From Thermus amyloliquefaciens (GTDB taxonomy: Bacteria; Deinococcota; Deinococci; Deinococcales; Thermaceae): a stretch of 64,000 nucleotides of DNA. The first letter of the stretch is position 1. Each line of letters starts with the position of its first letter. The stretch spans positions 1,798,001-1,862,000 of the forward strand of contig NZ_JQMV01000003.1 of NCBI RefSeq assembly GCF_000744885.1, read 5' to 3'. The notes beneath the pieces are model-generated. The model worked only from the letters and a program-made list of their open reading frames with translations, was not told the DNA's origin and ran no database searches. A program made the position numbers and the translations under genes. This document shows, piece after piece, positions 18,810 to 60,462 of this stretch.

Positions 18810-20884
<2,075 letters not shown>

Positions 20885-28812: not shown

Positions 28813-29921
28813 CTACCTCCTCAGGGCCTCCTCGGGGGGGGTATAGGGCAGGCCGAAGGCCTCCGCCACCCCGGGATGGGTGAGAAGCCCCCGGTGGGTG
28901 TTGAGGCCTTTGCGGAAGGCATCGTCCTCCAAAAGGGCCTCCAAGCCCTTCTCCGCCAGCTTCAGCACGTAGGGCAGGGTCTGGTTGGTGAGGGCGAAGG
29001 TGCTGGTCCTGGGCACCGCCCCCGGCATGTTGGCCACCCCATAGTGCACCACCCCCTCCACCACGTAGGTGGGCTCGGCGTGGGTGGTGGGGCGGATGGT
29101 CTCCACACACCCCCCCTGGTCCACGGCCACGTCCACGATCACCGAGCCCTCCTTCATGAGGGGCAGCATGTCCCGGGTCACCAGTTTGGGGGCCTTGGCC
29201 CCGGGCACCAACACCGCCCCGATGAGGAGGTCTGCGTGCTGGATGCTCTTCTTGATGTTGGCCTCCGTGGCGGTGAGGGTGACCACCCGGCCCCCAAAGA
29301 CATCGTCCAGGTACTGGAGGCGCTTATGGTTCACGTCCAGGATGGTCACCTGGGCCCCCATACCCAGGGCGATCTTGGCGGCGTTGGTGCCCACGGTGCC
29401 GCCCCCCAGGATCACCACGCTGGCCGGGGCCACCCCGGGCACCCCCCGAGGAGCACCCCCCGCCCCCCATGGGGCTTCTCCAGGAACTGGGCCCCCACCT
29501 GGGGGGCCATCCGCCCCGCCACCTCGCTCATGGGGACCAGAAGGGGGAGGGAGCCGTCGGGAAGCTGCACGGTCTCGTAGGCTATCCCCGTGACCCCGCT
29601 TTGCAGCATGGCCTCGGTGAGGGTGCGGTCCGCGGCCAGGTGCAGGTAGGTGAAGAGGATGAGGCCGGGGCGCAAAAAGGGATACTCCTCGGGCAGGGGC
29701 TCCTTCACCTTCACCACCAGCTCCGCCCCCCAGGCCTCCTCCCGGCTCACCAGCTCAGCCCCCGCCCGCTGGTACTCGGCATCGGATAGGCCGGAGCCCA
29801 GGCCTGCACCCCGCTCCACCAAAACGGTGTGCCCGCGCTTGACCAGGCTTTCCACCCCACCCGGGGTCATGGCCACCCGGTTCTCCAGGGTCTTGATCTC
29901 CTTGGGTACGCCGATCACCAT
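28813..29921 (-). CDS. ald: Alanine dehydrogenase (single-base break)
   Basis: Catalyses NAD-dependent oxidative deamination of alanine. The N-terminal half begins [10 protein letters not shown] and keeps V-K-V-K-E-P. The frame breaks at a run of six G (plus strand C6, 29442-29447). The second half has the Rossmann motif [11 protein letters not shown] and the C-terminal H-P-G-V-A. One more G gives 369 residues, the family size. The gene is in line with truB and the Asp23 pair. Confidence 0.88.
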
Positions 29922-51936: not shown

Positions 51937-52361
51937 GGGCGGAAGACCTCCGCCTGGAAGCCCAAGGCCCTAGCCCTTGCCACCAGGAGGGGGTTGTCGT
52001 CCAGGTAGAGGGCCTCCTCCGGGGAAAGCCCTAAGGAGCGTAGGGCTAGGGCGACGGCCTCCAGCTTCTCCGGGTGGAAGAAGGCCCGGTAGCCCTCAGG
52101 GGGCGGGAGGTCGGAAACGAGATGAAAGGGCTCGGGGAAGGGGTGGGCCCGGGGGCGGAAGGCCAGGGGGTAAAGGCGTCTTGCCCCGGGGAAGAGGGCC
52201 TCCAGGACCCCTGGCCCCTCCGCCTTGAGGCGGGGGAGGAGGCGGTAAAAGGCCTCGGAGAGGTAAAAGGGGGGCTCCCCGCCCGCCTCGGAGAGGAGGC
52301 GGAGGAGCCTGGGCTCCACCGGCTCGCAAAAGACCCCGGAGAGGTCCAGGAGGTAGACCAC
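51933..52361 (-). CDS. HAD-superfamily hydrolase
   Basis: A 142-residue HAD protein. Motif I is L-L-D-L-S-G-V-F (nucleophile Asp6; the +2 position is Ser rather than the usual Asp), and motif IV is Y-L-D-D-N-P. Variants with D-L-G-G-V or D-L-S-G-V lie in HAD subfamily IA and include phosphatases of unknown substrate. GTG 52361 is chosen because TACCTT ends six bases upstream (leaderless). Its end overlaps hrpB by four bases. Confidence 0.75.
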   Translation of the reverse strand: MVYLLDLSGVFCEPVEPRLLRLLSEAGGEPPFYLSEAFYRLLPRLKAEGPGVLEALFPGARRLYPLAFRPRAHPFPEPFHLVSDLPPPEGYRAFFHPEKLEAVALALRSLGLSPEEALYLDDNPLLVARARALGFQAEVFRP

Positions 52362-52362
52362 C

Positions 52363-52391
52363 TTTCCAAGGTATCGCAAAGGGTTTATGCT
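52363..52391. promoter_or_regulatory. Overlapping divergent promoters, HAD and SCP2 genes
   Basis: Plus strand: TTTCCA (52363-52368) and TATGCT (52386-52391), 17 bases apart, for the SCP2 gene. Minus strand: TACCTT (52368-52373) is the -10 of the HAD gene. The two promoters overlap almost completely. Confidence 0.55.
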
Positions 52392-52410
52392 CGGTGCAAA
52401 GGAGGCGAGC

Positions 52411-52803
52411 ATGGAACTTTTCTCCCCAGCCTGGGCCGAGGCCTACTGCCAGAAGCTCAACGAAAGCGAGGCCTACAAGAAGGCGGCGGCCACCTGGGAG
52501 GGCTCCTTGGCCCTAAGGGTGCGTCCCGACCCCTCCTTGGGCTTCCCCGAGGGGGTGGCGGTGGTCCTGGACCTCTGGCACGGGGCGTGCCGGGGCGTGC
52601 GGGTGGTGGAGGGGGAAGCGGAGGCGGACTTCGTGATCGAGGCCGACCTCGCCACCTGGCGGGAGGTGCTGGAGGGGCGCCTCGAGCCCCTCATGGGCCT
52701 GATGCGGGGGTTTTTGGAGCTGAAGCGGGGCTCCATCGCCGCCTTGGCCCCCTACGCCCAGGCGGCCCAGGAGCTGGTCAAGGTGGCCCGGGAGGTCCCA
52801 TGA
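52411..52803 (+). CDS. SCP2 sterol-binding domain protein
   Basis: A 130-residue protein with the SCP2 fold: an N-terminal helix, a central beta sheet and F-V-I-E-A-D-L-A-T-W-R-E-V-L-E-G-R-L-E-P-L, typical of the family. Bacterial members bind lipids or CoA esters. GGAGG five bases before ATG 52411 fixes the start. It overlaps the dehydrogenase start (ATGA). Confidence 0.8.
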   Translation: MELFSPAWAEAYCQKLNESEAYKKAAATWEGSLALRVRPDPSLGFPEGVAVVLDLWHGACRGVRVVEGEAEADFVIEADLATWREVLEGRLEPLMGLMRGFLELKRGSIAALAPYAQAAQELVKVAREVP

Positions 52804-54161: not shown

Positions 54162-55172
54162 GTGCTGGGGCGCTACGTCCTCAAGGAAGTCCTGGTCCCC
54201 TACCTGGTGGGGGTCCTCCTCTTCGTGGCCCTCCTCACCTTTGACCTCCTCTCCAGCCTCTCCGGGGTGCTCCTGAGCCGGGGGGCCAGCGCCGAGGCCA
54301 TCCTGACCCTCATCCTCTACCGCCTTCCCTGGACCCTGAGCCTGGCCCTGCCCTTGGGCCTGGTCTTCGCCATCCTGGTGGGCCTGGCCCGCCTCATCCG
54401 AGGCTCGGAGCTGAAGGCGGCCTACGCCGCGGGCGTACCCCCCTGGGCCCTTTTGAAACCCCTGGCGCTTCTGGCCCTTTTGGTGAGCCTCTTCAACCTC
54501 CTCAACCTGGCCGAGCTCCGCCCCCGGGCCCTCGAGGCCTACGACCGACACCTGGCCCGGCTCCTCTACGGGGAAGGCGGCCTAAGCGGGGTTTTGCGCA
54601 AACAGCTCTACGCCGCGGAAGGCCTCGGGGTCTACTACGCGGAAGAGGTCCGGCCCGAGGTGGGGCAAAACCGCCTCTTCGGCATCCGGGTGGTGGACGA
54701 AAGGGGCCGGGTCTATAGCGGCCAGGAGGGCGTATGGGACAAGGAGGGGTGGCACTTTCGGGGGTACGTGCTGGAGGAGGGCAAGCCCAAACCCTTCGCC
54801 GGCACCCTTCCCTTTCCCGCCCAGTTCCGCCCCAAGGAAAGCCTGGGCTCCCGCGACCCCTACGACTCCACCACCCTAAAGGAGCTTTGGGAGAGGAGCC
54901 GGGTGGAAAGCGGGGCCCGCTTTGCCTTTTACCGCCGGCTGGCGGATGCCCTGGGGGGGTTCTTCCTGGGCCTGGTGGCGGCCGCCTTGGGCCTTTCCTT
55001 CCGGGAGGCCGCCTGGGCCTTTCTCAGCATCGTCCTCCTCATCTTCGGCTACTACGTGCTCTGGACCCTTTCCGCCCAGCTGGCCCGCTACGACGTGAAC
55101 CCCCTCCTGGCCTTTCTTCCCAACGCCTTCTTCGCCGCCTTGGGCCTCTTCCTCATCTGGAGGCTTAGATGA
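54162..55172 (+). CDS. lptF: LptF/LptG-family permease 1
   Basis: A 336-residue membrane protein of the LptF/G (YjgP/YjgQ) family: three N-terminal helices, a periplasmic domain (about 130-240), then three C-terminal helices. In Gram-negatives LptFG with the ATPase LptB extracts lipopolysaccharide from the inner membrane. GTG 54162 is chosen from the -10 box. The open frame extends upstream to 53913, but that part is unlike the family. It overlaps the second permease gene (ATGA). LptF versus LptG cannot be told apart by eye. Confidence 0.85.
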   Translation: MLGRYVLKEVLVPYLVGVLLFVALLTFDLLSSLSGVLLSRGASAEAILTLILYRLPWTLSLALPLGLVFAILVGLARLIRGSELKAAYAAGVPPWALLKPLALLALLVSLFNLLNLAELRPRALEAYDRHLARLLYGEGGLSGVLRKQLYAAEGLGVYYAEEVRPEVGQNRLFGIRVVDERGRVYSGQEGVWDKEGWHFRGYVLEEGKPKPFAGTLPFPAQFRPKESLGSRDPYDSTTLKELWERSRVESGARFAFYRRLADALGGFFLGLVAAALGLSFREAAWAFLSIVLLIFGYYVLWTLSAQLARYDVNPLLAFLPNAFFAALGLFLIWRLR

Positions 55173-56211
55173 AGACCCTGGACCGCTACCTCCTGCGCGA
55201 GGCCCTGGCCCACTTCAGCCTGGGGCTTGGGGTCATCGTCCTCCTCTTCCTGGCGGGGGCGGTCTACGAGGTCCTGGCCCCCCTGGTGGCCAAGGGGGCG
55301 GACCCCTATACCCTCCTCCGCTACCTCCTCTACCGCACCCCTGAGGCCTTGGTCCGGGGGGCCCCCGTGGCCTACCTCTTCGCCCTTCTCTTCCTCCTCT
55401 CCCGCCTGGCCGAGGACTCGGAGCTGAAGGCCCTTCTCGCCTTGGGCATCCGGCGGGAGCGGGTTCTGCTTCCCTTTTTGGCCCTGGGGGGGTTCTGGCC
55501 CTTTTGGGCTTCGTCCTGGGGGAAAGCCTGGTGCCCAAAGCCCTGGCGCAGGGGCAGGACCTCCTCCGCAGGCAGGTGCTGGAAAAGCCCCGGACCCTTC
55601 TCACCCCGGGCACCACCTTCCAGGACGCCAAGGGTAGGGTGGTCCACGTGGGGGAGGTGGCGCGGGATCGGATCGGAAAGCTGAGGATCCTCTCGAGGGA
55701 GGAGGTGATCCTGGCGGAGGAAGGGAGGTTCCAAGGCGGGGTCCTCCAGGTGGCAAGGGGCCTCAGGGTCACCTACGAGGGGGATAGGCCAAGAACCCTG
55801 ACCCACTTCCAGGAAGGGGAGCTGGTGCTTAAGGACCTCACCTTTGAGCCCTGGCAGAACCCCGCCAACCGCATGACCCTAAGGGAGCTTAGGCAGGAGG
55901 TGGAAAGGCTTAGGACCATGGGGGTGAAGGCGGGCCTCGAGGCCACCACCTACCACCGCCGCTTCGCCGAGCCCGCGGCCAGCCTGGTCTTCGCCCTCTT
56001 CGCCACGGGGCTCGCCTTCTACCTGCTCGGGGGATCCCGGAGCCTGGGGCTCGTGGGGGTGGCGGTCCTCACCTTCTTCTACTACGCCACCTGGAGCGTG
56101 GGGCGGATCATGGGGGAGCAAAACGCCCTGGATCCCCTCCTGGCCGCCTGGGGGCCCAACCTGGTCTATGGCCTGTTGGGGCTTCTCCTCTTTCTGGGAG
56201 GGCGAAGGTGA
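55169..56211 (+). CDS. lptG: LptF/LptG-family permease 2 (single-base break)
   Basis: The partner permease, 347 residues once repaired. The N-terminal three helices run to about residue 110, where the frame breaks at a run of seven G (55486-55492). The rest (periplasmic domain and three C-terminal helices, F-A-T-G-L-A-F-Y-L-L-G-G) continues in another frame. One more G joins them through L-G-G-V-L-A-L-L-G-F. The intact partner on each side suggests a sequence error. ATG 55169 overlaps the lptF stop. Confidence 0.83.
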
Positions 56212-58684
56212 GGTGGCTTTTCGCCCTCCTCCTGCTCTTCCTCCCCGCCCTGGCCCAGGAGAAGGTCTTGAGGGTTTTAGAGGCGGAAAAGCTGGAACTC
56301 CGGCAGGAGGGGGAGGAGGAGGTCTACGTGCTCACGGGCAGCCCCGTGCGCCTGGAGCGGGATGGGGAGGCCCTCGAGGCGGGGAGGGTCACCTACTTCC
56401 GCACCCGGAGGCTCCTTTTTCTCTCCGAAGGGGTGCGCTACCGCGACCGGGAGGGAAGGCTTGTGGAGGCGGAGGAGCTCCAACTAGACCTCTCCGACGA
56501 AAGCTTTGACGCCCTGGAGGTGCGCATCGAGGCCCAGGACCTCCTGCTCACGGGCCCCCTTTGCCAGCGGGTGGCGGGGGCCATCCTCCTGGAAAGGGGC
56601 TACGCCACCCCTTGCGCCCCTTGCGGCCAGGAGGTGCCCGACTACGCCTTCCGCGCCCAGGAGATCGTCCTCTATCCCGGGGACCGGGTGGTGGCCCGGG
56701 GGGTGGTGCTCCTGGTGGGGGAGAGGCCGGTCCTGGAACTCCCCGCCCTCCTCCTCTTCCTCTCCGAGCGCAGGCCCCGGCTGGAGGTGGGCCAGGATGC
56801 GCAAGGGGTCTACGTGAAGGCCGCCTTGCCCTACGTCTCCGACTTCGGCCTGGGGTTCACCCTCCTCGCCTACTATGAGGGGCGGGGCTACGGCTTCGGC
56901 TTTGACCACGTGGGCACCGGGGAGGCCAAGGAGCGCTACTTCTTCCTCCACACCCCCCCGGAGACCTTCCAGTACCGGGGGGAGTACGCCCTAAAGCGGC
57001 AGGAGTTCTCGGTGAGCGCCCTTCTGGAGCGGGACGATACCCGGGAAAAGCTCTCCCGCTTCCGCCTGGAGGGCCTCCTCCCCGGCGCCCCCACCCCGGG
57101 GGACTGGCGCTACGCCCTGCGGCTGGAGGGCTTCCTGGACCACGACCCCGCCACCCCTCCCCCCGCACCCTGCAGCGCCTGCCCGAGCTGGAGGTGCAAA
57201 GCCCCGTCCTGCGGGAAGGGCCTTTTAGCGTGCAAGGAAGCCTGGCCGTGGGCCGCTACCTGGCGGAGACCAACCCCCTAAACCGCTCCGCCCGGGCCCT
57301 GGGGCCCTACGCGGAGGCGGAAAGGGCCCTTTTTGCCCACAGCGAAAGCCTCGCCCTCACCCCCTGGCCCGGGGCCACCTTGCGGGCGGAAAACCGCTTC
57401 CGGGGCTTTTACTACACCACGCAGAACCCGGATGGGGAGCCCGAGCGCCAGGTGGACTGGACCACCTCCGCCAGCCTGCGGCAGGCCCTGGGGGGCTTGA
57501 GCCTCGAGGCCGCCTATACCCGAAGCGTCCAGGAGGGGGAAAGCCCCTTCCGCTTTGACGCCCTGCCCCAGCGGCGGAGCCACCAGGCCACCCTTAGCCT
57601 GGGCTTCCAGGAAAGGCCCCTCCTCCTCAGCCTGAAAGCGGGAAGGGACCTGGAGGCGGGGCGCTACCTGCCCCTCGAGGCCCAGGCCGCCCTCCAGGAG
57701 CCGGGTTACACCCTTACCCTTTTCCACAAGCGGGGCCTTGCGGGGGAAGGCCCCCTGGAGACCCGCCTGGAAGGGGGCCTCACCCCCTACCCCTTCTCCC
57801 TGAAGGCCAGCCTCCGCTACGACCACCCCAAGGCCCTCTTTGACCCCCTCCTCCTCCAGGCGGGCTACGCCCTGCCGGGGGGAAGCCTGAACCTCACCCA
57901 CCGCCACGACCTCAATGGCCAAGGCGCCCTCACCACCGACCTCACCTACGCCCTGCGGGAGGGGGCGAACGCCTACACCCTCCAGGCCAGGCGGGACTGG
58001 CGGCAAGACGCCCTGGCCCTCCAGGGGCAGGCCATCCTGGGGCCGCAGAGCCTCTCCCTGCAGGCCACCTTGGACCCCAAGGCCCTGGCCTACACCCTGG
58101 GCTTCCGCTCAGGGGTGGCCCCGGGGCCCCTGGGGGAGCTGGCCCTTTCCGGGCGTTACCAGGAGGGTTTCCGGGCCACGAACCTCCGCCTCAGCCTCAC
58201 CCAGGCCCAACCGGAGGTGGGCTTCCGCCTAAGCGCCAACCTGCACCTGCCGGAGGTGGAGGACAAGGAGGTGTACCTGAAGGACGCCACCTTCAGCGGG
58301 GGGGTGGAGCTGTGGCGGCCCGTGCCTGCGGACGAGGAGGGGGAAGGGGCTATCCCCGGGCTTTCCCTCTCGGGGAGCCTGACCTATACCCGGAAGACCG
58401 GCACCCCCGAGGGTTATGGCCTCTCCTTGCGGAACTTCGGCCCCACCCTCACCTTCCTGGGCCGGGAAAACACCAAGCTCCACCTTTCCGCCCTCCTCAC
58501 GCAAAACCTTCCGGGGGAACCCCTGAAGCCCCGGTTCCTCCTGGTCCTGGACCGATGCTGCTGGGCCCTGCGCTTCACCCTGGACGCCGCCAAGGGCAGC
58601 GTGGGCCTGGCCTTCCTCTACGGGGGCCAGGCGGCGGGGCTTCTCCTTTCGGAAGAGGGCGTGAAGCTGGGAGGTGGACCGTGA
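56208..58684 (+). CDS. lptD: LptD-like outer-membrane assembly protein (single-base break)
   Basis: About 825 residues once repaired. It has a signal peptide (1-16, L-P-A-L-A-Q), an OstA/LptA-like domain (about 20-100) and a long beta-rich C-terminal region typical of an outer-membrane barrel. Cysteines at about 119, 136 and 139 and an adjacent Cys-Cys pair (codons 58556-58561, about 784-785) match the LptD layout, where N-terminal cysteines bond with a C-terminal pair. The frame breaks at a run of six C (57159-57164); one more C restores it. Start overlaps lptG (ATGA-type). Confidence 0.82.
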
Positions 58685-59775
58685 AAGGATTGCGCCGCTT
58701 GGGTGGCCCGCCTTGGCTTTCCCCACCCCGGGGGCCCCGGAAGGGCTTTGGGCATCGCCCCCCTTCCCTGTCCGTTGCGGGAACCTCCCTGCAACGGCAC
58801 CTGCTCCTAGCCCTCTTGCTCCTTCTCCTCGCCGCCTGCACGGGAAGCCAAGAGCCGCCCCTGCCCGCCTTGGTGGCGGCGGGGGGCGGGGGTGAGGTGC
58901 GCTTCTACCGGGCGCGGGACCTGCAGGAGGGCACGGGGAACCCCGTGGCCACCTGGGATGCCCAAAACCTCCAGGACCTGGCCTACAGCAACGCCTTCCA
59001 AAGGCTCTACCTTCTCTTCCCCGACCGAATGGAGGCCTACGACACCGCCACCTTCACGGAAAACGCCGTCCCACAGGGCTCCCCCACCGAGGCCTCCCTC
59101 CCCGCGGACTGCGCCGGGGGCTACCTGCGCCTGGGGCAAAGCCGGCTCCTGGCCCACTGCCCAGGGGCAGGAAGGGCCTTCCTCTGGAGCCTGGACGGCT
59201 CGGGGAACCCGGAGGAGGTGGACCTCACCGGCCTTCCCCCGGAGGTGCGCCTGGCCCTCTTCCCCCAAGGAGGGCAGGAGGTTTTGGCCTACATGACCCG
59301 GGAGGCCCTGGGCTACCGTCCCGCCCAGAACCCCTCGGGCACCCCCAGCCTGGAAAAGCCCTTGGACCCCCAGGCCAGCCAAGGCCCCTTTGACCTCCAG
59401 CTGGACCGGGCCCGGGGAAGGCTTCTCGGGCTTGCCGCCACCCCCACGGAGGTACGCCTCTACGCCCTGGAAGGGGATGCCTTGACAAGCCGCAAGGTGC
59501 TGGGGGACTTCCCTCAGCCCAGCCGCCTGGCCCTGGACCCCGTGGGGGCGGTGGTCTACGGCCAGGGGTTCCAGGTGCTCCTGCCCAAGGAATCCCCCCT
59601 GCAGCAGGAGTTTCGCACCTACACCGCTGGGCTGGTGGGCCAGGACGGCTACCTCTACCTGGCCCAGGGGCAGAGCCTCGAGGTCTACGACCTGGTGCCC
59701 TCCCCACCCCTTTTCCTGCGCTCCTCAAACCTGGGGTTCAGCCCCACCTCCTTGGCCTTCATCCCGGTAGAATGA
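58681..59775 (+). CDS. Lipoprotein with beta-propeller-like repeats
   Basis: A 364-residue protein. GTG 58681 overlaps the lptD stop (GTGA) and is six bases after GGAGG, so it is preferred, but it leaves about 36 residues before a Leu-rich signal with lipobox (L-L-L-A-A-C-T-G-S). A start closer to the signal at a rare codon is possible. The body has repeated strand pairs with G-x-x-x-L-Y-L and D-P motifs, suggesting a propeller. It may work with LptD at the outer membrane. It ends V-E-stop (GTA GAA TGA), which forms the SDR -10. Confidence 0.7.
   Translation: MKGLRRLGGPPWLSPPRGPRKGFGHRPPSLSVAGTSLQRHLLLALLLLLLAACTGSQEPPLPALVAAGGGGEVRFYRARDLQEGTGNPVATWDAQNLQDLAYSNAFQRLYLLFPDRMEAYDTATFTENAVPQGSPTEASLPADCAGGYLRLGQSRLLAHCPGAGRAFLWSLDGSGNPEEVDLTGLPPEVRLALFPQGGQEVLAYMTREALGYRPAQNPSGTPSLEKPLDPQASQGPFDLQLDRARGRLLGLAATPTEVRLYALEGDALTSRKVLGDFPQPSRLALDPVGAVVYGQGFQVLLPKESPLQQEFRTYTAGLVGQDGYLYLAQGQSLEVYDLVPSPPLFLRSSNLGFSPTSLAFIPVE
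59768..59773 (+). promoter_or_regulatory. -10 box across the lipoprotein stop codon
   Basis: TAGAAT overlaps the end of the upstream gene, and five bases separate it from the ATG at 59779. The message is probably leaderless. The same string precedes hpt. Confidence 0.5.
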
Positions 59776-59778
59776 GGC

Positions 59779-60462
59779 ATGCTCCAAGGCAAAGCCTTTT
59801 TGGTCACGGGGGCGGGAGGCGCCTTGGCCCGGGCGGTGATCCCCGCCTTGCACCGGGCAGGGGCCAGGCTCTTCCTCTCCGACCCCAGGGAGGAAAGGAT
59901 GGCGGAGCGGGCCAGGACCTACGGGGCGAAGACCTTTGTCGCCGACCTCACCCGCCTGGAGGAGGCCCTGGCCCTGGCCCGCTTCGTGGAGGGGCAAGCT
60001 CCCCTTTACGGGGTGGTGCACACCGTGGGGGGCTTCGCCGCCGGGCGCTTTCTGGACTCGGACCCCGGGCTTTACGACTGGATGCTGGACCTGAACCTGC
60101 GCACCGCCTTCAACCTGCTCCAGGCGGTCCTGCCCTACATGGAAAGGCGGGGGGAGGGTTTCTTCGCCGCCATCGCCGCCGGGCCCGCCTGGACGGGGGC
60201 CGGGCCGGGAAGGGCCCTTTACGCCATGGCCAAGGCCGCCCTGGCCACCCTCCTGCGGTCCCTCCAGGGGGAGGTGGAGGGGGTGCGGTTCCTCATCCTC
60301 TACCCCATGGGCACCCTGGACACCGAGGCCAACCGCAAGGCCATGCCCGAGGCCGATCCCAGCCGCTGGATCTCCCCGGAAATCCTGGCCGAGGCCATCC
60401 TCCTGGGGGCCTCCGCTAAGGGCGGCCGGCTTCTGGAACTTCCCATCTACCCCCCAGCCTAG
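59779..60462 (+). CDS. Short-chain dehydrogenase/reductase family protein
   Basis: A 227-residue Rossmann protein with the cofactor motif T-G-A-G-G-A-L-A near residue 10 and the catalytic Tyr-Lys pair in Y-A-M-A-K. The usual catalytic Ser, expected about 13 residues earlier, seems replaced in the A-A-I-A-A-G-P-A-W segment, so activity may be altered. The substrate is unknown. It converges on and overlaps the VanZ-like gene by 47 bases. Confidence 0.8.
   Translation: MLQGKAFLVTGAGGALARAVIPALHRAGARLFLSDPREERMAERARTYGAKTFVADLTRLEEALALARFVEGQAPLYGVVHTVGGFAAGRFLDSDPGLYDWMLDLNLRTAFNLLQAVLPYMERRGEGFFAAIAAGPAWTGAGPGRALYAMAKAALATLLRSLQGEVEGVRFLILYPMGTLDTEANRKAMPEADPSRWISPEILAEAILLGASAKGGRLLELPIYPPA

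Follow-up and report, generated by a model that had tools for sequence, protein, structure and literature searches.

A putative Lpt-type export locus with an LptD homolog and a propeller lipoprotein in Thermus amyloliquefaciens

What would a set of lipopolysaccharide (LPS) transport genes export in a bacterium whose genus is reported to lack classical LPS? The question is raised by a 64,000-nucleotide stretch of the Thermus amyloliquefaciens genome (contig NZ_JQMV01000003.1, positions 1,798,001 to 1,862,000; the whole stretch is called the window below, and positions are counted from its first letter), in which genes for two LptF/LptG-family permeases, a candidate LptD, and a lipoprotein follow one another. 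T. thermophilus is stated in PMC10353723, which cites Putker 2015, to have no LPS yet to possess Lpt orthologs, and a glycolipid is suggested there as the cargo. Lpt is described as repeatedly retained after LPS loss (PMC11784454) and as strongly conserved across diderms (PMC13067283). Loss of LPS has been inferred in some Deinococcus/Thermus (PMC5007114), and one survey reports lptD to be missing throughout the atypical diderms, Deinococcus-Thermus among them (PMC8871954). Our preferred reading, to which we give a probability of roughly 0.6, is that the locus would encode the outer end of an Lpt-type export bridge for a cargo other than LPS, with a glycolipid as the candidate, and that the lipoprotein, a predicted beta-propeller, is a likely accessory of LptD.

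The locus and its LptD homolog

The genes of the locus and the relevant parts of LptD are as follows.

54162..55172, forward strand: lptF, LptF/LptG-family permease of the inner membrane (PF03739, E 8.1e-58, covering the whole profile, positions 1-353 of 353)
55169..56211, forward strand: lptG, second LptF/LptG-family permease, in two frames (55169-55684 and 55504-56211), both matching PF03739
56208..58684, forward strand: lptD, outer-membrane LptD homolog as judged by the fold match of an ortholog model, in two frames (56208-57281 and 57194-58684)
56265..56759, forward strand: N-terminal beta-taco region of LptD, approximate limits transferred from the ortholog model
56613..56624, forward strand: PCxxC cysteine pair of LptD close to the taco-barrel hinge, both cysteines in 36/36 aligned LptDs
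58556..58561, forward strand: C-terminal Cys-Cys pair of LptD (CCW), in 36/36 aligned LptDs
58681..59775, forward strand: lipoprotein following lptD, predicted beta-propeller, probably seven-bladed (lipobox LAAC, Cys codon 58837-58839)

An earlier, sequence-only reading of this DNA had proposed that two permeases, an LptD-like barrel with a Cys-Cys pair near its C terminus, and a lipoprotein form one operon, and this arrangement was borne out. The lptF match was made with the stretch 54171-55169, the start having been chosen from the open reading frames (ORFs) of relatives, and the two lptG pieces match PF03739 (LptF_LptG) with E values of 3e-27 and 1.3e-41, respectively. Neighboring genes overlap by 4 bases, as ATGA at 55169 and as GTGA at 56208 and 58681; the start codon of the lipoprotein gene is uncertain, one candidate being the GTG at 58681, which runs into the stop codon of lptD. 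The lptF-lptG-lptD-lipoprotein order recurs in 25/25 same-genus loci examined, a count that, like the other same-genus counts here, leaves out one fragmentary genome (G025). Among 38 lptD loci, lptF and lptG lie upstream of lptD in 36, and the lipoprotein gene lies directly downstream in 32.

The barrel was examined through a structure model of the LptD ortholog of T. parvatiensis, predicted alone (mean predicted local distance difference test score [pLDDT], 85.3; predicted template modeling score [pTM], 0.56). The prediction yielded an LptD-type barrel, as the sequence-only reading had anticipated, with LptD entries topping both the Foldseek and the VIA-align comparisons. The top 36 Foldseek rows against the PDB were LptD entries (best E, 3.1e-20), 33 of them so titled; the rows 4q35_A and 4n4r_A/C we take to be LptD as well. 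VIA-align comparisons with E. coli LptD gave Z scores of 20.3 (root mean square deviation [rmsd], 15.9; 566 aligned residues) and 20.1 (rmsd, 12.1; 551 aligned), and other outer-membrane barrels scored below the LptD rows, at 12 to 14. One VDAC row among the Foldseek results had a TM-score of 0.42 by target length. Model residues 18-139 resemble the LptA-like beta-taco, matching LptA 2r1a_C with a Z score of 14.1 (rmsd, 2.1; 116 aligned residues). By its modeled fold, the barrel is an LptD homolog: the family is clear, and the barrel shape or the domain placement is poorly matched. This modeled fold speaks against the absence of lptD stated in PMC8871954, and the divergence of Thermus LptD may explain why the survey missed it.

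Like the Thermus protein, gammaproteobacterial LptDs (PDB 5iv9, 9ia0, and 8h1s) combine an N-terminal beta-taco with a large C-terminal barrel, a hinge cysteine, and adjacent C-terminal cysteines, and LptF, LptG, and LptB homologs are encoded in the same genome in both cases. The systems differ in that Thermus lptD stands directly behind lptF and lptG, in a genome without an LpxC match, and the LptD proteins share 8 to 14% sequence identity. Besides the hinge CxxC and the near-C-terminal CC found in all aligned LptDs, a further cysteine lies 17 residues upstream of the CxxC in 17/36 of them and in the window. One hinge cysteine and one C-terminal cysteine are invariant in a six-row alignment that includes E. 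coli LptD. The E. coli protein has, by sequence, Cys31, Cys173, Cys724, and Cys725, which form the disulfides 31-724 and 173-725. The first cysteine of the CxxC aligns with E. coli Cys173 (in a weak alignment, E 0.006), whereas the far-N-terminal E. coli cysteine has no counterpart in the Thermus family, which has extra cysteines near the hinge instead. The hinge and C-terminal cysteines are positioned such that they could pair.

Conservation of LptD was surveyed in 111 genomes of the class to which the window belongs, in five numbered families (f1 to f5; Thermus belongs to f1). A profile built from 36 named sequences matched 106/111 genomes, including 27/27 Thermus genomes. The genomes without a match were G048, G049, G064, G085, and G103, three of which are less than 75% complete and two of which (G048 and G103) are more than 90% complete. 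The ratio of nonsynonymous to synonymous substitution rates (dN/dS), computed against 14 of 26 loci (L037-L062), was 0.14 to 0.43 for the N part of lptD and 0.17 to 0.62 for the C part, with 0.23 to 0.58 for the lipoprotein gene and 0.13 to 0.42 for lptF. These ratios indicate that lptD is under purifying selection.

LptD-like proteins were also noted outside the class. Metagenome-assembled genomes (MAGs) of Omnitrophota and Armatimonadetes encode LptD-like proteins (L122:2305-4521, L123:1964-4195, and L124:6719-9103) that have a TCD at the hinge and a single C-terminal cysteine and occupy an intermediate position relative to E. coli LptD and the Thermus family. LptD-like proteins of 799 amino acids occur in contigs assigned to Halobacteroidaceae MAGs (L126:5755-8151 and L128:1512-3908, with partial ones in L125 and L127); the L126 protein matches LptD_N at 1e-7. 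No clear LptD is reported for the Halanaerobiales in PMC5007114.

Frame breaks in the assembled sequence

The sequence-only reading had called the locus complete. All four genes are present, but lptG and lptD are each split between two frames as assembled. The lptG break lies in a G run near 55489-55495 and the lptD break in a C run near 57160; each gene is one base short in its homopolymer, and the window is the sole row of 27 aligned with a gap at either site. The genome is a draft of 2,160,855 bases in 6 contigs, and strain YIM 77409T is described in PMC4769583 as having been sequenced with PacBio RS alone and assembled with HGAP 2.1.1 into 6 scaffolds.

When the window was set against sequence from two relatives, four of its conserved genes appeared frame-split: lptG, lptD, and the genes for elongation factor G (EF-G; 18813-20884) and alanine dehydrogenase (28819-29921). 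The two halves of EF-G lie in different frames and match an intact relative with identities of 88 and 95%, and alanine dehydrogenase occupies two frames compared with an intact relative. A fifth two-frame row (51942-52797) was found, for which the relative's ORF may be overlong. The lptD gene is a single open frame in 23/25 same-genus loci, and the two broken copies (G010 and G008) break at other positions. The simplest explanation, judged from these alignments, is that the breaks in lptG and lptD are assembly indel errors, because EF-G, which is hardly credible as broken in a living cell, is also split (a second EF-G copy was not looked for) and because most same-genus copies of lptD are intact. 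Programmed frameshifting in lptG or lptD was rejected, as the aligned relatives stay in frame through the sites, with varying sequence. Frame changes elsewhere in lptF, lptD, lptG, or the lipoprotein gene were observed in other few-contig Thermus genomes, at L049 (G008), L043 (G010), and L047 (G022).

The propeller lipoprotein and the rest of the putative Lpt machine

The suggestion that the lipoprotein has a propeller-like pattern agrees with its structure model (pLDDT, 92.0; pTM, 0.87), which matches beta-propellers over model residues 26-330. The best VIA match was a 6-phosphogluconolactonase (6nau_A; Z, 25.8; rmsd, 3.0; 289 aligned), followed among other propellers by a designed protein whose title calls it 7-bladed (7bid; Z, 23.0) and BtuG lipoproteins (Z, about 21 to 22); the blade count of seven is taken from the matched structures. 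Because propellers match one another widely, with 963/966 compared chains reaching a Z score of 8 or more, these matches establish the fold of the model and not its function. In Bacteroides, the propeller lipoprotein BtuG pairs with BtuB, a barrel of the outer membrane, and the likeness to BtuG (BtuG2 8bai_A, Foldseek E 8.4e-8; BtuG1 8blw_B, VIA Z 21.8) is one of fold only; BtuG differs in binding vitamin B12 compounds. In E. coli, the lipoproteins LptE, LptM, and LptY work with LptD (PMC12644819), whereas the Thermus lipoprotein is a predicted propeller without a Pfam match. The LptE model PF04390 had no match in the window's genome at E 0.1 and gave 4 weak matches among the 111 genomes, and LptE was not among the fold-match rows shown for the lipoprotein model. 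Two cysteines (residues 110 and 126 of 58783-59772), possibly forming a disulfide, are invariant in a 20-row alignment of the lipoprotein.

The lipoprotein profile matched 62/111 genomes, comprising 50/50 of f1, 12/14 of f4, and 0/47 of the others, where a very divergent propeller could escape it. An origin of the lipoprotein with LPS loss is ruled out, since 21 f1 genomes with LpxC carry it too. From its gene position, the lipoprotein may be a partner of LptD, and it may reach the outer membrane or could also remain in the inner membrane. The LolA model had no match in the window's genome and matched 3/111 genomes overall (two of them Thermus, G016 and G018) plus two archaeal controls; it is thus ill suited to showing that LolA is absent. 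Behind the lipoprotein gene lies one further gene on the same strand:

59779..60462, forward strand: short-chain dehydrogenase (PF00106, E 9.1e-19), 3 bases past the lipoprotein gene

This dehydrogenase, which may be cotranscribed with the lipoprotein gene, is the next gene in 24/25 same-genus loci, and the remaining locus reaches a contig end.

Locating LptA, LptB, and LptC had been put forward as a check, and LptB and LptA-like genes were found elsewhere in the genome, while an LptC-like gene could be named by position only, without a curated match. LptB is encoded at C3:495233-495946 (324.9 bits against a cutoff of 240), so that LptB, LptF, and LptG are all present in the genome. An LptA-like gene at C3:1401110-1401967 matches PF03968 (39.1 bits, E 9.5e-10), and its neighbor at C3:1400177-1401106 scores 19.7 bits against a cutoff of 20.4 (23 if scanned with its neighbors). 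The ORF at C3:1401964-1402587, before the LptA-like genes, shows a hydrophobic segment at its N terminus on visual inspection and matches nothing in Pfam, and it is called LptC-like from its position. By homology, LptF and LptG, powered by LptB, would extract the lipid from the inner membrane; LptC/LptA-like beta-taco proteins would carry it across the periplasm; and the propeller lipoprotein would, as its place in the gene order suggests, most likely assist LptD, be it with assembly, with gating, or with the handling of the substrate.

A second Lpt-like module was observed at L075:5957-8496 (C3:242956-245495). It consists of a third LptF/G permease (C3:242962-244050) and a 211-amino-acid protein that has no Pfam match, is taco-like by eye, and is found in 97/111 genomes and 21/27 Thermus genomes. 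The module faces an oppositely placed gene with a subthreshold Wzy_C match, and its LptF/G permease is nearby in 11/11 other Thermus loci examined.

Cargo, rival readings, and significance

The premise that Thermus lacks classical LPS was supported. LpxC had no match in the window's genome or in any of the 27 Thermus genomes, with positive controls included, in agreement with the statement in PMC3398001 that "no LPS exists in T. thermophilus HB8 (data not shown)." Elsewhere in the class, LpxC was present in 21/23 other f1 genomes (among them M. ruber, G034, and M. silvanus, G033), 0/4 of f2, 35/39 of f3, 1/14 of f4, and 4/4 of f5, for a total of 61/111. LptD was matched in 47/50 LpxC-negative and 59/61 LpxC-positive genomes. 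LpxC was used as the main marker because the LpxB matches, in 49/111 genomes and 0/27 Thermus, are short, weak (E 3e-6 to 1e-3), and patchy: the LpxB model performs poorly throughout the class, lacks a match in some LpxC-positive genomes (e.g., G031, G027, and G039), and matches B. subtilis. LpxK was found in 0/111 genomes although 61 have LpxC, so its absence from Thermus is not informative; Synechococcus elongatus likewise has LpxC without LpxK, and lipid A in the LpxC-positive genomes of the class may lack the 4′ phosphate.

With no match to the lipid A enzyme LpxC, LPS is an improbable cargo, and we treat the locus as a putative Lpt-type system without classing it as an LPS exporter. The glycolipid Galf-Galp-GlcNacyl-Glc-diacylglycerol is given in PMC3398001, and all examined Thermus and Meiothermus are said to share a glycolipid core (PMC3035268 and PMC3035272). 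We regard this N-acyl-hexosamine glycolipid of the family as the best candidate: its N-acylated amino sugar and its three chains would make it a plausible substrate for Lpt export. Borrelia and other LPS-less diderms likewise retain an Lpt bridge, with a glycolipid as the proposed cargo (PMC10353723). They differ from Thermus, where a propeller lipoprotein is linked to lptD, and Borrelia LptD is said in the same source to be free of cysteine, whereas the LptDs of the Thermus family have four in all 36 sequences. Glycolipid transport by Lpt is called "entirely hypothetical" for Spirochetes in PMC11784454.

It is possible, if doubtful, that the bridge carries not the neutral glycolipid but another outer-leaflet lipid, such as a lipid-linked polysaccharide or the phosphoglycolipid with N-acetylglucosamine and alkylamine. 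A phosphoglycolipid is also reported in the literature for Thermus, Meiothermus, and Deinococcus, and the second LptF/G-type permease, beside a small secreted-looking protein and opposite the subthreshold Wzy_C gene, suggests that several lipids may travel on Lpt-type machines; however, nothing found links phosphoglycolipid or polysaccharide to the locus, and the three-chain N-acyl-glucosamine would be closer to lipid A. The lipoprotein is unlikely to be a strict replacement of LptE that plugs the LptD barrel. Its frequent place behind lptD (32/38 loci) and the LptE model staying below its cutoff in all 111 genomes would fit that role, but a propeller of about 300 residues, far larger than LptE, may not fit inside the barrel, and three other families have LptD without a lipoprotein match.

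We also consider it improbable that LptD and the propeller lipoprotein work together as a translocon without LptE, supplying the outer leaflet with the N-acyl-hexosamine glycolipid, and that the lipoprotein itself reaches the outer membrane through this bridge or through the second module of LptF/G type. Such delivery is suggested by the lack of a LolA match in the window's genome and weakened by the LolA matches in two other Thermus genomes. If true, it would contradict the view that LPS-lacking diderm Terrabacteria apparently place no lipoproteins in their outer membrane (PMC11784454). Less probable again is that the LptD system displays surface lipoproteins, as one group proposed for Borrelia in work reviewed in PMC11784454, where an opposing study is also covered, and that the adjacent lipoprotein is its cargo. 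The rarity of LolA matches, none of them in the window's genome, may call for another outer-membrane lipoprotein route, yet two of the three are in Thermus, so that a divergent LolA is possible there, and the lipoprotein profile is limited to two families (62/111 genomes) while LptD spans 106/111. It is very improbable that the locus is a set of pseudogenes left from a lost LPS export system, with no present role. The assembly does show breaks in lptG and lptD, but EF-G of the same window is broken too (with the caveat on a second gene given above), lptD is intact in nearly all same-genus loci and matched in every Thermus genome, and dN/dS is below 1 in every comparison.

Several points weigh against the preferred reading of an Lpt-type bridge with non-LPS cargo. 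Foldseek TM-scores to LptD are 0.21 to 0.32 by model length, with rmsd values of 13 to 18 Å, and the pTM of the model is only 0.56. By hhalign, the match to E. coli LptD alone is weak (probability, 6%; E 0.006). Stronger hhalign matches, to an Omnitrophota LptD-like protein (E 1.8e-13) and to the six-row LptD-like set that includes E. coli LptD (E 4.5e-28, 237 columns), span the taco and hinge and not the barrel, and they are not independent, since Thermus-family patterns had been used to fetch five of the six rows; when four fetched rows were scanned, none matched the LptD barrel model PF04453, and three passed the LptD_N or OstA_2 cutoffs. Curated LptD models of Pfam and NCBIfam, including PF04453 and PF03968, stay under threshold on the Thermus proteins; among 20 members, weak matches went to DUF3769 (3/20; best E 0.034), LptD_N (2/20; 0.24), and the LptA model TIGR03002 (4/20; 0.0027). 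A PDB sequence-profile search with the LptD family was likewise not significant, with RavA entries first (E 0.3) and N. gonorrhoeae LptD fourth (E 0.36). LptB was chosen among 46 ABC ATPase matches, as the sole one above its cutoff, and no LptC was found in the genome by a curated model. Finally, Meiothermus, which has LpxC, is reported to share this glycolipid core, so the retention of Lpt there needs no glycolipid.

Retention of Lpt without LPS in Thermus and a glycolipid cargo have already been published (PMC10353723; for the general idea, PMC11784454). The lptD-linked propeller lipoprotein was not described in the titles and abstract openings listed by literature searches on Lpt in Thermus, Deinococcus, Meiothermus, Deinococcota, and Terrabacteria and on an LptD-associated propeller lipoprotein in Thermus. 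How LPS-less diderms fill their outer leaflet is a question for which the Thermus family allows a within-family comparison: genera with and without LpxC share the LptD family, the lipoprotein, and reportedly the glycolipid core, making the nature of the cargo directly testable. The presence of an LptD homolog in Thermus, as its modeled fold indicates, would also bear on reconstructions of the ancestral envelope.

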